In this document: positions 8,660-27,219 of the stretch, in pieces
Numbering within the stretch: the first letter of the stretch is position 1
Layout of the letters: every line of letters begins with the position of its first letter
DNA from: a virus
Reading direction: 5' to 3' (one strand)
DNA length: 27,555 nucleotides
Virus record (IMG/VR): IMGVR_UViG_3300008116_000213
Span: 1-27,555 of that record
Notes under the pieces: generated by a model
Told to the model about the DNA's origin: nothing
The model's input: only the letters and a program-made list of their open reading frames with translations
Databases searched by the model: none
Translations under genes and position numbers: made by a program

Positions 8660-9274
8660 ATGAAAAAAATATTTTTCTTCTTATTATTTGCGTCTAAGCT
8701 TCAAGCCCAGACGATTACTTTTGATACATCGTATGTCAAAATTATTGACAATGCTTATTATCTTATTTACCGTGCCGATTATGCGGACGGTGGGTATTAT
8801 GAAAAGGCTTCCATTATTGGGGATACAAGTCAGCTTTATTATGGTGCTTTGTCAAGTTTTGAAAATAATGCAAATAACTTTGCTGACAAGGTTGTAGCTT
8901 ATTATGATTTTGGCAGGAAAATAACAGCAGTCATAAGGGAAAATAACAACCTTTTGACAATGACGGGCAAAAATCCATTGGATACTATTCTTAAAAACAA
9001 TGCAGAATTTTACACGGATAACAAATGGCAGATAACGTCACTTGGAATAACAGCAGCAGTTGACTTTAATTACAATAAAAATACAAGTGCATTCAGGTAC
9101 ATTGTCGAAGGCTCAACGGCAAAAAACGCTATTGTATTTTCAAAGTTTGCGATACGATTAATAAGTTATCCAGTTTTAGGACAATTTCTTGATTTATATT
9201 GGGAGGAGGGCAAAAGTAGGTATATTTCACAGGATGGCAAAGTAATTTTAAGGCAATTAAAAGCTAATCGATGA
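8660..9274 (+). CDS. Secreted protein of unknown function in the tail/lysis region
   Basis: The product has 204 residues from ATG 8660. An earlier in-frame start at 8588 lies inside the fibre gene and would bury the signal peptide, so 8660 is chosen; it is preceded by the A-rich leader AAAAACATAAAC. The N-terminus is a clear Sec signal (MKKIFFFLLFASKLQAQ) with probable cleavage around residue 16-17. The rest is soluble and beta-rich with many Tyr and Asn residues, and no known catalytic motif was recognised. Its 3' end overlaps the holin start (ATGA). It could act in the host envelope during lysis or be exported; neither is shown. Confidence 0.85.
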   Translation: MKKIFFFLLFASKLQAQTITFDTSYVKIIDNAYYLIYRADYADGGYYEKASIIGDTSQLYYGALSSFENNANNFADKVVAYYDFGRKITAVIRENNNLLTMTGKNPLDTILKNNAEFYTDNKWQITSLGITAAVDFNYNKNTSAFRYIVEGSTAKNAIVFSKFAIRLISYPVLGQFLDLYWEEGKSRYISQDGKVILRQLKANR

Positions 9275-15823: not shown

Positions 15824-15898
15824 AAACAAGGGAGGGATTCGAACCCTCGTCGCACCCAGCGTTACCCAGGCCGTTCTAAACCACTGAACTACCTTGCT
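15824..15898 (-). tRNA. Non-canonical or degenerate tRNA-like gene
   Basis: On the - strand a near-complete cloverleaf can be drawn. The 7-bp acceptor pairs AGCAAGG with CCTTGTT (one G-U); the D arm pairs GTTC with GAAC around AGTGGTTTA; the T arm pairs GAGGG with CCCTC around TTCGAAT, including the canonical B-box. Between GAAC and GAGGG are 24 bases. The best fit is base 26 = G, a five-pair anticodon stem with three G-U pairs, an eight-base loop GGTAACGC and a normal five-base variable loop. The identity cannot be assigned because T33 is not in its usual place. CCA is not encoded. It sits six bases after the stop of 15905-16132, inside the leftward operon. It could be functional, a frameshift-type tRNA, or a decayed copy. 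Confidence 0.6.
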
Positions 15899-23565: not shown

Positions 23566-23721
23566 ATGAAAATGGCTATTAAGAAAAAGAACGTAATGAT
23601 GTCGGAAGAAACCCATTGTAAACTTATGGAGATAAGAATGAAGGTTTATAAATCAAAGGGCTTATTGCTAACAATGGAGAAAACTATTCTGCATTTAATT
23701 GAAAATCAATCTAAGGATTAA
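23566..23721 (+). CDS. Ribbon-helix-helix-like small DNA-binding regulator
   Basis: The product has 51 residues (49 if started at ATG 23572). Plan: a basic N-terminus and one strand (IKKKNVMM), then SEETHCKLMEIRMKVYKSKG and LLLTMEKTILHLIENQ, matching strand-helix-helix of the Arc/CopG type with the typical S-E-E-T-H helix start. Such dimers bind short palindromic operators. It is a lone gene with its own promoter and terminator, transcribed away from the SSB unit, and next to several palindromic sites at 23722-24200; autoregulation and control of the divergent units are inferred. Confidence 0.65.
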   Translation: MKMAIKKKNVMMSEETHCKLMEIRMKVYKSKGLLLTMEKTILHLIENQSKD

Positions 23722-23731
23722 AAAGATAATT

Positions 23732-23747
23732 GTTTTTTGACTGTATT
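23732..23747 (-). repeat. Reversed near-copy of the right-operon leader element
   Basis: Between the regulator stop and its terminator, the - strand reads CAAATACAGTCAAAAA, like the rightward leader element CAAACAGTCAAAAAC but with a two-base insertion. No start codon follows it on the - strand, so it is more consistent with a protein-binding site than a ribosome site. Confidence 0.4.
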
Positions 23748-23750
23748 TGA

Positions 23751-23779
23751 AGCCGTGGTAATTTGTCACGGCTTTTTTT
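23751..23779 (+). terminator. Rho-independent terminator after the regulator gene
   Basis: AGCCGTG (23751-23757) and CACGGCT (23767-23773) form a perfect 7-bp stem around nine bases, and T continues to 23779. It ends the one-gene transcript of the ribbon-helix-helix-like protein. Confidence 0.9.
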
Positions 23780-23782
23780 ATT

Positions 23783-23837
23783 AGGGGTAGGGTCGAATAG
23801 GGGCTATGTCGAATGAGGCTAGGGGCAATGTCGAATG
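23783..23837. repeat. Three direct repeats GGGG..GTCGAAT
   Basis: Copies start at 23783, 23799 and 23821. Consensus AGGGGCWATGTCGAATGA; the first copy reads GGGTAGGGTCGAAT. Spacing is 16 and 22 bases. They follow the terminator and open the long gene-free region; iteron-like binding sites are the simplest reading. Confidence 0.65.
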
Positions 23838-23842
23838 AAACC

Positions 23843-23909
23843 AAAATCGTTTTTGAAAAAATGGAAAATCGTTTTTGAAAGTTTGATATTTTGACAAAAA
23901 CTGTCAAAA
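23843..23909. repeat. 16-bp direct repeats and an adjacent inverted repeat
   Basis: AAAATCGTTTTTGAAA occurs exactly at 23843-23858 and 23865-23880, 22 bases apart (two helical turns). Immediately after, TTTTGACA (23889-23896) and TGTCAAAA (23902-23909) form a perfect inverted repeat with a five-base spacer. The half-site TGTCAAAA resembles the core of the right-operon leader element. Confidence 0.65.
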
Positions 23910-24165
23910 ATATATAGTCAAATTACCAGATTGTTTGCATATATATATACAAATTACATACATAAGCATATACACATATAAGGCAATGCAAAATGATAAT
24001 AAAATTTACATATAATTCTAACTATATATACCAAAAATACCCAAACAAAAGTCCATTGAATATTATAGGTAAAATCTGGGTTATAGTAGATTATAATCAG
24101 GTAATATAGTTTTTATAGTATAAAGAAAAAACTATGACAAAATGCCAATAAATAAAGTACAAAAC
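23910..24165. other. Very AT-rich gene-free stretch
   Basis: No plausible gene. It holds short alternating AT runs (ATATATATAC near 23940) and an imperfect region with ATAGTTTTT (24106-24114) inverted as AAAAACTAT (24127-24135). Easily melted DNA fits an origin unwinding element, which is only inference. Confidence 0.4.
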
Positions 24166-24321: not shown

Positions 24322-24430
24322 CTAGGCGATTTCCAATCGGGAATGACGCTTAGTTAACCGGGAACCTGACCAATCTCTGAATTGAGGTCGAAAAATCCCT
24401 TCCAGCCAGATCCCAGCGTTTTTGGGAAAT

Positions 24431-24616
24431 CCTACTAAATTGGTAGGGTTTATTTGTCCTATAGGATTAGTAGGGTTAATTTTGGGCCTTCCCAGATCTT
24501 GAGGATCCAAAAAAAATCCTATCAAAAAGGTAGGGTTTATTTGTCCTACTGAATTGATAGGATTAAAAAAGTTCTATCTAAATTGTAGGATTAATTTATC
24601 CTACTAAAAAAGTAGG
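24431..24616. repeat. Six 17-bp near-palindromes with about 27-bp period
   Basis: Units start at 24431, 24458, 24518, 24545, 24573 and 24600. Consensus CCTACTAAATTGGTAGG, each an inverted CCTAY/RTAGG pair, joined by GTTTATTTGT-like linkers. Spacing is 27, 60, 27, 28 and 27, so one position (near 24488) is missing or decayed. It resembles an iteron array or multi-operator; as RNA, each unit would be a short hairpin. Confidence 0.8.
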
Positions 24617-24722
24617 GTTAATTTTCTTCCCTGGAAACAAATTTTTTAAAATTGATCTGATTAAAATTTTTAGGCCGTCTTTCTGAGTGTAAAAAATAAT
24701 ATCAAAAAAAAATTAAAAAATA

Positions 24723-24753
24723 TTTGCATTTATATAAAGTATGTGTAAATTTG
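24723..24753 (+). promoter_or_regulatory. Consensus Bacteroidota promoter of the rightward early operon
   Basis: TTTG at 24723-24726, exactly 19 bases, then TAAATTTG at 24746-24753, matching both -33 and -7 consensus elements. The expected start near 24758-24760 gives a leader of about 30 bases that contains the first AAACAGTCAAAAAC element. Confidence 0.85.
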
Positions 24754-24767
24754 CCTATCAATTATTT

Positions 24768-24782
24768 CAAACAGTCAAAAAC
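24768..24782 (+). promoter_or_regulatory. Leader element copy 1 (CAAACAGTCAAAAAC)
   Basis: It ends eight bases before ATG 24791. It is identical to copy 2 over 15 bases, and copies 3-5 share at least the last 14. The constant distance to the start codon suggests a role in translation initiation or in binding by a regulator. Confidence 0.75.
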
Positions 24783-24790
24783 AAAACAAA

Positions 24791-25036
24791 ATGACAACAA
24801 CAACAAAACTTACAAAAGAATTTTTTAACACTAATTTAGATCTATTTTTTGATGCCTATTTTGATACAGCATGCAAAGAAAAAAATGTAGAAAGATTAAT
24901 AGTTATCGATTCTAGACTATGGATTAAATTTATGTCTGATTCAAAGAACCTACAGTTAAACTTTGATTTATTACAAGATCTATTTATTAATGAGTTAAAA
25001 ATTTGGCGTAAGGAATTTACTGAGTACTTTGCGTAA
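24791..25036 (+). CDS. Unknown protein, first gene of rightward early operon
   Basis: The product has 81 residues, helical and aromatic-rich (KEFFNTNLDLFFDAYFDTAC, LQDLFINELKIWRKEFTEYF), starting with MTTTTKLT. The first seven residues resemble the start of the next gene (MTTTILTAF), as if the leader and start region had been copied as a block. No family recognised. A small terminator-like hairpin follows. Confidence 0.8.
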   Translation: MTTTTKLTKEFFNTNLDLFFDAYFDTACKEKNVERLIVIDSRLWIKFMSDSKNLQLNFDLLQDLFINELKIWRKEFTEYFA

Positions 25037-25046
25037 AAAATCAAAC

Positions 25047-25073
25047 GGCCGGCCTAAAAAACCGGCCAATTTT
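25047..25073 (+). terminator. Weak GC hairpin between first two genes of rightward operon
   Basis: GGCCGG (25047-25052) and CCGGCC (25062-25067) form a 6-bp stem around CCTAAAAAA, followed by AATTTTC. The loop and the GGCCGGCC core recur in the hairpin at 26338-26363. With a poor T-run, it may reduce rather than stop transcription. Confidence 0.55.
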
Positions 25074-25088
25074 CAAACAGTCAAAAAC
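25074..25088 (+). promoter_or_regulatory. Leader element copy 2 (CAAACAGTCAAAAAC)
   Basis: It ends eight bases before ATG 25097, directly after the GC hairpin. Identical in all 15 bases to copy 1. Confidence 0.75.
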
Positions 25089-25096
25089 AAAAAAAA

Positions 25097-25972
25097 ATGA
25101 CAACAACAATTTTAACCGCATTTAACCCAATTACTGAGGCATTCAGTAAATTAGCTAACAATCTATCTGATAGAAGATCTTTAGATTTTTTAGTAGAAAA
25201 TTTTACAGATGAAGAACTAAAAACAGAACTTATTAAGTTTTCTAAAAATTATTTGCTTTCTACAGTTCAAACCGAAATTGCGGCCCAAAAAAGGTACAAA
25301 AGGAAATTAGGTACATTTGAGGATCTTATTAAATATCTACTTAAAAATGTATGTTCAAAGGATCAATTAAGGCCGCAAATGAATTCAGTATATTATGATA
25401 AAGAGAATAGTAATATAGTAGCTACAGATGCGTATATTTTAACAATTTTACCACTAAAAAAATTACCTATTTCAGATATTGCTGAAAATGTAGCGCGTTT
25501 TTTAAATGATGATTTTTCTCAATTAATAAAATATACTGAAAATAGCTTTAAACTAGATAAGTACGGAGACATTTTAAACGAAGATTTAGGCCGTAAATAT
25601 CCTGATTATAATGCCGTTTACCCGGTAGAAAACTATTTAGATTACCCTTATTTTTCTGTTAATCCTTTGTTATTTAACGGCCTTAAAACTATTAATAGGA
25701 TAGCTAAAAAGTTAAAAATTGTAAGATTTGCTATTAAACTATCTTGTTTAGAGAATAAAGCATTCATAAACCTAGAGCTACTTATTAGAGCTATTGAGGT
25801 ACACCAAAAAATAAAAGGTAATTATAACTATTTAACATTTACGCGCAATGGAAACGAAATAGGCAAAGCTCTATATAATGTAGATTTTTGCAATAATTTT
25901 AAATTTTTGGTTATGCCTATAATAGTAGAAGAAAGTGACGAAAATTTAACCCTGGATTTGAATAATTTATAA
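25097..25972 (+). CDS. Sliding-clamp-like protein (DNA polymerase III beta family)
   Basis: The product has 291 residues. Blocks typical of beta-clamp relatives of Bacteroidota mobile elements: LRPQMNSVYYD at 91-101, VATDAYILTILPL at 108-120, and YPDYNAVYPV at 168-177, with a predicted beta-rich C-terminal half (FTRNGNEIGKALYNVDF, FKFLVMPIIVEE). The N-terminal 80 residues are helical. It is shorter than a full three-domain clamp (about 370), so it may have two domains. By family it would tether a polymerase to DNA. The assignment is moderate; a search against clamp profiles would decide it. Confidence 0.55.
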   Translation: MTTTILTAFNPITEAFSKLANNLSDRRSLDFLVENFTDEELKTELIKFSKNYLLSTVQTEIAAQKRYKRKLGTFEDLIKYLLKNVCSKDQLRPQMNSVYYDKENSNIVATDAYILTILPLKKLPISDIAENVARFLNDDFSQLIKYTENSFKLDKYGDILNEDLGRKYPDYNAVYPVENYLDYPYFSVNPLLFNGLKTINRIAKKLKIVRFAIKLSCLENKAFINLELLIRAIEVHQKIKGNYNYLTFTRNGNEIGKALYNVDFCNNFKFLVMPIIVEESDENLTLDLNNL

Positions 25973-25991
25973 ACAATCAACAAACTTTTTT

Positions 25992-26006
25992 CAAACAGTC
26001 AAAAAC
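25992..26006 (+). promoter_or_regulatory. Leader element copy 3 (CAAACAGTCAAAAAC)
   Basis: It ends ten bases before ATG 26017, preceded by a T-run. Identical to copies 1 and 2. No terminator separates it from the clamp-like gene. Confidence 0.75.
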
Positions 26007-26016
26007 AACAAAAAAA

Positions 26017-26328
26017 ATGGAAACAACAAATTTTATCAATTCTTTAAAATCTGCTGATTTTAAAAGTTTTATTTTGGTTCTAAATGCCTATTCTAGTCAA
26101 TACGAAACAAGAGATTTAGAGATTGAATATTCAGGATTCAATACTAATTCAGGTTATGTCTATTTAGCTTTAGAAAATGGTATATCAATAGTATCTTGTT
26201 TTGGTAATGCTGTAGAGTATTTAGTGGAAAACAATAGAACCGGCGAAGAGTATTTTTTTGATACTTATAAAGAAGCGTTAAATTTTTTAAAGTACGGCGA
26301 AGAAAGCGACGACGAAAGCGAAGATTAA
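26017..26328 (+). CDS. Unknown acidic protein
   Basis: The product has 103 residues. A mixed alpha-beta body (SADFKSFILVLNAYSSQYET, GYVYLALENGISIVSCFG, EEYFFDTYKEALNFLKYG) ends in a strongly acidic tail (EESDDESED), reminiscent of DNA-mimic or partner-binding tails. No family recognised. A strong terminator follows. Confidence 0.78.
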   Translation: METTNFINSLKSADFKSFILVLNAYSSQYETRDLEIEYSGFNTNSGYVYLALENGISIVSCFGNAVEYLVENNRTGEEYFFDTYKEALNFLKYGEESDDESED

Positions 26329-26337
26329 ACCAAAATT

Positions 26338-26372
26338 AGTAGCCGGCCTAAAAACCGGCTACTTTTATTTTT
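26338..26372 (+). terminator. Rho-independent terminator within rightward region
   Basis: AGTAGCCGG (26338-26346) and CCGGCTACT (26355-26363) form a perfect 9-bp stem around CCTAAAAA, followed by TTTTATTTTT. The next gene starts only 19 bases later, so downstream genes need read-through or another promoter. Confidence 0.9.
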
Positions 26373-26390
26373 CAACTTAAAAACAAAAGA

Positions 26391-26516
26391 ATGTTAATTG
26401 AGAAAGTTATATTTTACCTATTAATAGGCTTGCTATTTTACCCTATTATCCTATTTTATGTTTGTGTTCTAGTCGTTCTATACTATGGATTAAAAGGTAA
26501 AATTGAAAAAAAGTAA
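26391..26516 (+). CDS. 41-residue membrane protein
   Basis: ATG 26391 opens a 41-residue frame MLIEKVIFYLLIGLLFYPII continuing through LFYVCVLVVLYYGL to KGKIEKK. It is one long or two short membrane helices with a basic C-terminal end. The leader TCAACTTAAAAACAAAAGA is a decayed form of the element seen before its five neighbours. Function unknown. Confidence 0.65.
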   Translation: MLIEKVIFYLLIGLLFYPIILFYVCVLVVLYYGLKGKIEKK

Positions 26517-26525
26517 ACAAATTTT

Positions 26526-26540
26526 AAAACAGTCAAAAAC
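26526..26540 (+). promoter_or_regulatory. Leader element copy 4 (AAAACAGTCAAAAAC)
   Basis: It ends eight bases before ATG 26549. It differs from copies 1-3 only in its first base. Confidence 0.75.
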
Positions 26541-26548
26541 TAAAGATT

Positions 26549-26767
26549 ATGAAATTTAATGAATGGATTGTAGTATTAAATGGTAAGCGCTTAGATTGTA
26601 ACGGTTTTTATTGTAGTTCTGCATGCGTGACAGCCTACAGTAAAAAAGAGGCATTGCGAATATTAGCTAAGGCAAAATTGTATTATTTTGGATCTTATAG
26701 GCTAAATTCTAGAACTAAAAAAAATACTTACATTAAAATGAATTTTTGTACAAAAATTTATAATTAA
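26549..26767 (+). CDS. Unknown Cys-containing small basic protein
   Basis: The product has 72 residues, beginning MKFNEWIVVLNGKRLDCNGF, with four Cys in CNGFYCSSAC and KMNFCTK and a helix AYSKKEALRILAKAK. The first three Cys are close enough for a metal site, but no standard zinc motif fits. Basic overall. Function unknown. Confidence 0.75.
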   Translation: MKFNEWIVVLNGKRLDCNGFYCSSACVTAYSKKEALRILAKAKLYYFGSYRLNSRTKKNTYIKMNFCTKIYN

Positions 26768-26780
26768 CCAACAATTTTTT

Positions 26781-26795
26781 AAAACAGTCAAAAAC
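26781..26795 (+). promoter_or_regulatory. Leader element copy 5 (AAAACAGTCAAAAAC)
   Basis: It ends seven bases before ATG 26803, preceded by TTTTTT. Identical to copy 4. Confidence 0.75.
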
Positions 26796-26802
26796 AAAAA
26801 AA

Positions 26803-27159
26803 ATGAATGAGATAACAAAAAAAGTTAAATTACCCAAATTTGCAAAAGTATTAACGCATAATCAATTAAGATGTGTCTGTTGTTTTGAGAATGCTAGAAT
26901 AGATAAAAATATTTATAATTACGATTCTGATTTTAATAAGTTTTTAAATGAGATAGTATTGAATATTTTAACCGGCGAAAATATCAGCGAAATTTTAAGC
27001 AATATCAAAAGCGAAAATATATTTTATGAAGCGTTCTATTTTATTTTTCAACTACAATATAAAGAAAAAGATCCTTTTAAATTTGCTACTCAATACTTGC
27101 ATAATGTAGATTTATATGATCATTATTATGTACTCGATTACTTTCTAGAAGTTTATTAA
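26803..27159 (+). CDS. Unknown helical protein, last gene of rightward region
   Basis: The product has 118 residues. The N-terminus is basic with QLRCVCCFENARID (three closely spaced Cys), followed by helices rich in aromatic residues (EAFYFIFQLQYKEKDPFKFA, HYYVLDYFLEVY). No family recognised. A strong terminator follows 23 bases after the stop. Confidence 0.78.
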   Translation: MNEITKKVKLPKFAKVLTHNQLRCVCCFENARIDKNIYNYDSDFNKFLNEIVLNILTGENISEILSNIKSENIFYEAFYFIFQLQYKEKDPFKFATQYLHNVDLYDHYYVLDYFLEVY

Positions 27160-27182: not shown

Positions 27183-27219
27183 AAGGCCTAATGATTAATT
27201 TCATTAGGCCTTTTTATTT
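27183..27219 (+). terminator. Strong rho-independent terminator
   Basis: AAGGCCTAATGA (27183-27194) and TCATTAGGCCTT (27201-27212) form a perfect 12-bp stem with loop TTAATT, followed by TTTATTT. It ends the rightward early region. Confidence 0.92.

Follow-up and report, generated by a model that had tools for sequence, protein, structure and literature searches.

A repeated translation-start leader and a conserved complementary site beside a terminator suggest antisense control of an early-type phage operon

We found that most genes of a rightward, early-type phage operon are preceded by the same short leader and that a conserved complementary site is located in a neighbouring 3'UTR, next to a terminator. 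From these sequence features, we consider it probable that an antisense RNA derived from this 3'UTR represses the leader-bearing translation starts of the operon jointly, so that a single small RNA of the phage may be able to turn down the entire operon in one step. The DNA that was analysed, called the window hereafter, is the whole stretch of 27,555 nucleotides at positions 1 to 27,555 of virus record IMGVR_UViG_3300008116_000213; it carries tailed-phage genes (tape measure, holin, endolysin, RecT, dCTP deaminase and SSB).

On the + strand of the window, exact copies of the 14-mer AAACAGTCAAAAAC start at positions 24769, 25075, 25993, 26527 and 26782, and their distances to the following ATG are 8, 8, 10, 8 and 7 nt, in that order. 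With the bases that precede them, these copies form leaders at 24765-24782 (TTTCAAACAGTCAAAAAC, before the ATG at 24791 of an 81-aa ORF), 25071-25088 (before the ATG at 25097 of a 291-aa ORF with a beta-sliding-clamp-like product), 25989-26006 (before the ATG at 26017 of a 103-aa ORF), 26523-26540 (before the ATG at 26549 of a 72-aa ORF) and 26778-26795 (before the ATG at 26803 of a 118-aa ORF), all on the + strand, so that five of the six operon ORFs of the window carry an exact 14-mer. Counting positions and gaps confirmed what a first-pass annotation of this DNA had described, namely five exact sites located 7-10 nt before an ATG. Contrary to this annotation, the five start codons do not follow one another directly, since the sixth ORF, a 41-aa membrane-type ORF with its ATG at 26391, sits between the third and the fourth. 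The leader of this ORF (CAACTTAAAAAC, 26374-26385, + strand) contains 6 mismatches and is too decayed to be called on the window alone, but the L120 orthologue of the 41-aa ORF (at 8790) has kept its leader with 1 mismatch, which supports the term "decayed"; with such a decayed copy, the proposal that all six genes are controlled was too strong. When up to 3 mismatches were allowed, the 20 matches observed in the window were never attained in window shuffles, and the exact 11-mer ACAGTCAAAAA on the + strand of the window is confined to the five leaders.

Scans of viral contigs provided relatives of the window, giving a family set of eight contigs that consists of the window, L078, L120, L126, L127, L128, L131 and L148 (another contig, L130, is nearly the same as L120). 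The leader was found on 36 of the 43 rightward-operon ORFs of these eight contigs (25 of the 36 being exact), with CAGTC starting at -18 to -21 in every leader. The conserved unit exceeds the 14-mer: a T is present at -26, -25 and -24 in 35, 34 and 32 of the 36 leaders, respectively, while fractions of only 0.26-0.51 were seen at -26 to -24 of control starts. CAGTC itself was not found within -36 to -1 of any of the 43 ORF starts that served as controls in the window; although A-rich, the other starts of these phages lack it (0/43 and 0/57). The 43 operon ORFs belong to 13 families with no detectable similarity to each other, in agreement with the earlier remark that the genes behind the leader are unrelated, and the leader is present in 11 of the 13, a conservative count that becomes 12 if the 41-aa family is counted through its L120 member. 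Among the seven ORFs that lack a leader, four overlap or closely trail the previous gene (gaps of -4, -4, 2 and 9 nt) and three are orthologous to the 41-aa membrane ORF, which has lost the leader. That the start distance is kept across 11 gene families and that the leader is missing at overlapping or close-following ORFs supports the translation-level signal that had been deduced from the spacing, a claim that also survived a look at related genomes, in which the motif does not occupy random positions.

Outside this family, 129 copies of the 14-mer were found in unrelated viral and bacterial contigs, and only 6 of them lie at the right distance before an ORF start, three of these 6 looking like one gene. 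The leader family stood out in a generic scan of 131 loci for repeated start-words, in which no other repeat with an antisense counterpart was convincing. A whole-region blastn search and a tblastn search with the clamp gave no match in a phage collection, and two further scans with alignments detected no more distant relatives. The extended leader had 11 matches in genome contigs, none of which was multi-copy at ORF starts, so that no host or prophage was found. Considering the TAnnTTTG promoter type and the A-rich starts, the hosts of these uncultured phages are probably Bacteroidota. Since a Pfam search detected no integrase in five records, a role in lysogeny is not assumed. One relative, L148 (also G004; 39,243 nt, classed linear), has repeated ends, offset by about 37,840 nt as deduced from duplicate matches, and probably represents a circularly permuted genome in its complete form.

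The operon is preceded by a sequence at 24723-24753 (+ strand; TTTG-N19-TAAATTTG), which was read from the sequence and which we take to be a putative Flavobacteria-type promoter on the basis of the Bacteroidota sigma factor consensus. The same promoter arrangement is found ahead of the operon in relatives, and no promoter of this type is visible at genes 2-6 of the window operon. A GC-rich hairpin is located in the gap between genes 1 and 2 (25046-25068, listed on the + strand, scored on the - strand and near-symmetrical), just upstream of the second leader, and terminator-like hairpins lie on the + strand between genes 3 and 4 (26338-26363) and at the rightward operon end (27183-27212). The clamp-like assignment of the 25097-25972 product comes from a profile match to 8dt6 (E 4e-7). 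A profile search of 397 Flavobacteriaceae genomes detected no phage relative; the matches that it did give look like chromosomal DnaN, with open frames of mostly ~370-400 aa, and were set aside. Before the operon promoter, a 53-nt repeat is found in three copies at 24427-24621, with hairpins of the type TCCTACTAAATTGGTAGGGTT, and also in relatives; these repeats are possibly a replication origin or attenuators. An Rfam search over the window detected no known RNA family besides one tRNA at 15824-15898 (- strand, 44 bits), whose anticodon was not assignable by ARAGORN and which was not found in the scanned stretches of the relatives.

The complementary site, or anti-leader (TTTTTTGACTGTAT, 23733-23746, + strand), lies on the same strand as its targets and ~1 kb upstream of the first of them, in the 3'UTR that follows a conserved ORF of 49 aa (23572-23721, + strand). 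It is complementary to the leader over 11 contiguous pairs and is immediately followed by an intrinsic terminator (23749-23779, + strand). A reversed near-copy of the motif had been noticed at this place and taken as a hint of DNA binding; the copy is real, with 2 mismatches, and it is conserved. The anti-leader is kept in all seven contigs that contain the site, L126 beginning past it. Over these seven contigs, the mean pairwise identity is 0.97 in the 11-nt core (TTTTTGACTGT columns) and 0.93 in the 30-nt UTR. In the adjoining 49-aa ORF, it is 0.91 for codon positions 1+2 and 0.77 for position 3, and it drops to 0.57 past the terminator. In the window, ACAGTCAAAAA occurs in the five leaders and once reversed at the anti-leader, and nowhere else; in the 39-kb relative L148, it occurs only in three leaders and once reversed at the anti-leader, and the same exclusivity holds in L120, L127, L131 and L128, the latter with one orphan leader in addition. 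The anti-leader of L078 has one altered base (GACTATAT) with no matching change in the leaders, and its shorter U-run still leaves 12 contiguous pairs. Since no promoter was seen directly ahead of the anti-leader, we assume that it originates from a 3'UTR. We also considered whether the reversed copy may be the leader of a leftward gene, but no ATG follows it on the - strand.

The AF2 model of the 49-aa protein (pLDDT 84, pTM 0.47) has an extended segment at residues 1-11 and helices at 12-29 and 32-46, a predicted ribbon-helix-helix (RHH)-like topology, and no match to this protein was found in Pfam, among PDB sequences or with Foldseek. About 110 nt past the terminator of this ORF, a palindrome, TTTTGACAAAAACTGTCAAAA, lies at ~23885-23911, with similar sequences in L078, L127 and partly L148; it is a candidate operator for the RHH-like protein. 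The half-site at 23902 that had been related to the leader belongs to this separate palindrome. The 1-kb non-coding region also contains, at 23782-23841, three tandem TAGGGGcTATGTCGAATGA-type repeats beside two copies of AAAATCGTTTTTGAAA, which are lost in L128 and L148.

Predicted duplex energies between the anti-leader and the five window leaders are -16.1 to -16.5 kcal/mol, while the 43 other starts of the window average -8.3 kcal/mol with a minimum of -13.3 kcal/mol, and none of 500 shuffled seeds equalled the observed mean. A contiguous complement of at least 11 was rare in shuffled UTRs (P = 0.0022). The leader-bearing starts of relatives that have the seed reach -12.0 to -17.0, and pairing stays at -13.4 or better for the divergent leaders of L148, L131 and L120. 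With opening costs included, the window leaders are at -12.7 to -14.8 kcal/mol and the 43 window control starts have a mean of -5.0 and a minimum of -10.8 kcal/mol; in G004, the leaders are at -9.4 to -14.3, one of them (31950, -9.4) within the range of the controls, which average -5.3 with a minimum of -10.8. Some coding positions elsewhere in the genome attain similar energies through long imperfect duplexes, so that energy alone is not unique to the leaders. Substituted leaders pair better than random substitutions as a trend only, and no clear case of a compensatory double change between leaders and anti-leader was seen in the relatives. On the side of the anti-leader, a weakness is that its U-run is predicted to be partly paired, both in the full mRNA and in a 3' fragment. 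The leaders themselves are predicted to be 58-96% unpaired; with no strong structure to be opened, repression is likelier than activation.

In the model that we favour, the 14-mer would be the core of a common translation-initiation leader, TTTNAAACAGTCAAAAAC, extending from about -26 to -9 and present on almost all genes of the operon that are started independently. Its A-run would supply, at -14 to -11, the A-rich stretch favoured by Flavobacterium ribosomes, while its CAGTC part would mark the gene as a target. The partner RNA may be the ~215-nt mRNA of the 23572-23721 ORF or a 3' piece processed from it, with its end at the terminator; in either case, the anti-leader (UUGUUUUUUGACUGU) would pair with the leader through 11 contiguous pairs and flanking pairs. 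By covering -19 to -10, such a duplex would mask the A-run and block ribosome loading, resulting in joint repression. That this RNA is transcribed and processed, acts in trans and represses is inferred, as would be any timing of its action; the clamp-like gene among its targets suggests a timing related to replication. It is also conceivable, if somewhat more doubtful than the repression itself, that the operon forms a post-transcriptional regulon in which the duplicated leader serves as a portable "address tag" taken on by new cassettes. RNase III processing of the leader duplex was discarded, as a helix of 11-14 pairs was considered too short for it.

Several other explanations were weighed against this model. 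The leader may be nothing else than a strong translation-initiation signal for ribosomes that do not use Shine-Dalgarno sequences, the antisense site being unrelated. Adenines at -14 to -11, -6 and -3 accompany efficient initiation in F. johnsoniae (PMC6847099), and the leaders show this pattern, being A-rich from -14 to -9 with A at -3 and -6. The absence of the leader from ORFs placed for translational coupling would also fit, but this explanation accounts neither for CAGTC, which the A-rich control starts of the same phages lack, nor for the strictly conserved antisense partner before a terminator, and we find it unlikely. The leader was rejected as a Shine-Dalgarno sequence, since the 14-mer matches a Flavobacterium 16S locus by complementarity over 6 nt at most (AACAGT) and contains no GGAGG. 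Proteins of the T4 RegA type are translational repressors, and a phage or host RNA-binding protein could similarly recognise the leader RNA and control all the genes. The fixed start distance, the predicted single-strandedness and the sequence-specific core would suit such a protein, but it would not need an antisense copy elsewhere and no candidate for it was identified, making this explanation quite unlikely. A small-RNA target is the best supported among the options raised by the first-pass annotation, with a conserved complementary site beside a terminator.

DNA-level explanations appear weaker still. If the RHH-like protein or some other repressor bound the leader as DNA, further sites could be provided by the reversed copy and by the palindrome (at 23891-23911), and the predicted extended-helix-helix topology of the 49-aa protein, the GTCAAAAA that the palindrome has in common with the leader and the existence of a reversed copy would all be in line with this. 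However, genes 2-6 have no visible promoter, so that initiation of transcription would not be controlled there, and all 36 leaders point the same way and keep their distance to the start codon; furthermore, no copy is found at the 49-aa ORF's own promoter and the model of the protein has no Foldseek match. The DNA-binding role that had been left open for the motif thus fits less well with its spacing, its orientation and the lack of promoters, and we regard it as very unlikely. Finally, the leader could mainly be a recombination joint for swapping gene cassettes. Cassettes are indeed swapped and reordered among relatives behind unchanged leaders: gene 3 encodes a different protein in L078 and gene 5 in L126, gene 6 has been lost by deletion from L078, where the junction falls within the leader, and survives as a mere remnant in L126, and the gene order differs in L128. 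Leader copies with no ORF after them (L128 6839 and L078 ~4903; orphan, truncated or cut by a deletion) suggest gene loss at the leader, and the first codons METTNF, common to the window 26017 and L078 4038 proteins that otherwise have no detectable similarity, may reflect cassette junctions a few codons inside genes. Recombination at the leaders clearly occurs, but it can be a consequence, possibly a side effect, and a joint would leave the conserved start distance and the antisense partner unexplained, making this explanation highly improbable as the main one.

If antisense repression by the 3'UTR-derived RNA is confirmed, one RNA would suffice to set a whole early-type operon, which would be a compact solution, and swapped-in cassettes would fall under control on arrival. 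It would also reveal translation control in phages of bacteria that do not use Shine-Dalgarno sequences and probably lack Hfq, and the leader and its anti-leader offer a concrete and cheaply testable handle on such control where ribosomes ignore these sequences. The base-pairing phage RNAs known so far come for the most part from Proteobacteria phages, and their usual targets are either a single phage gene or genes of the host. In a limited search of the literature, we found no base-pairing phage RNA in Bacteroidota phages, and no case of the same leader on nearly every separately started cistron together with one neighbouring 3'UTR.

Phage RNAs that pair at translation starts and 3'UTR-derived sRNAs are each already known kinds (PMC12197685). 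Lambda OOP, P22 sar and P1/P7 c4 are phage RNAs acting on phage genes, sar at a translation start (PMC12197685), as is proposed here. OOP and sar are transcribed opposite a single target (PMC12197685), whereas the anti-leader shares the strand of its proposed targets, at a distance of ~1 kb, and is complementary to many genes because the leader is duplicated. As in 3'UTR-derived sRNAs such as SdhX, the predicted pairing region lies at an mRNA 3' end, which in this case finishes with an intrinsic terminator, but SdhX is Hfq-dependent, is processed by RNase E and regulates scattered host mRNAs (PMC6393394). Lambda PreS, a phage sRNA, is also tied to a sliding clamp gene; it targets the host dnaN with Hfq (PMC12197685), while here the clamp-like gene that would be targeted belongs to the phage itself and is one among several with the leader. 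In Bacteroides, where no obvious Hfq or ProQ is found, GibS pairs with translation-start regions and represses (PMC7366714). The system described here resembles GibS and other trans-encoded sRNAs of Bacteroidota in its predicted pairing at the start region of more than one mRNA, in its conserved seed and in its low GC content (PMC7366714). Unlike GibS, which is intergenic in the host, has its seed in its 5' part and acts on a few metabolic targets (PMC7366714), the phage system would have a candidate seed adjoining a phage terminator and, as targets, repeated identical leaders in one operon.
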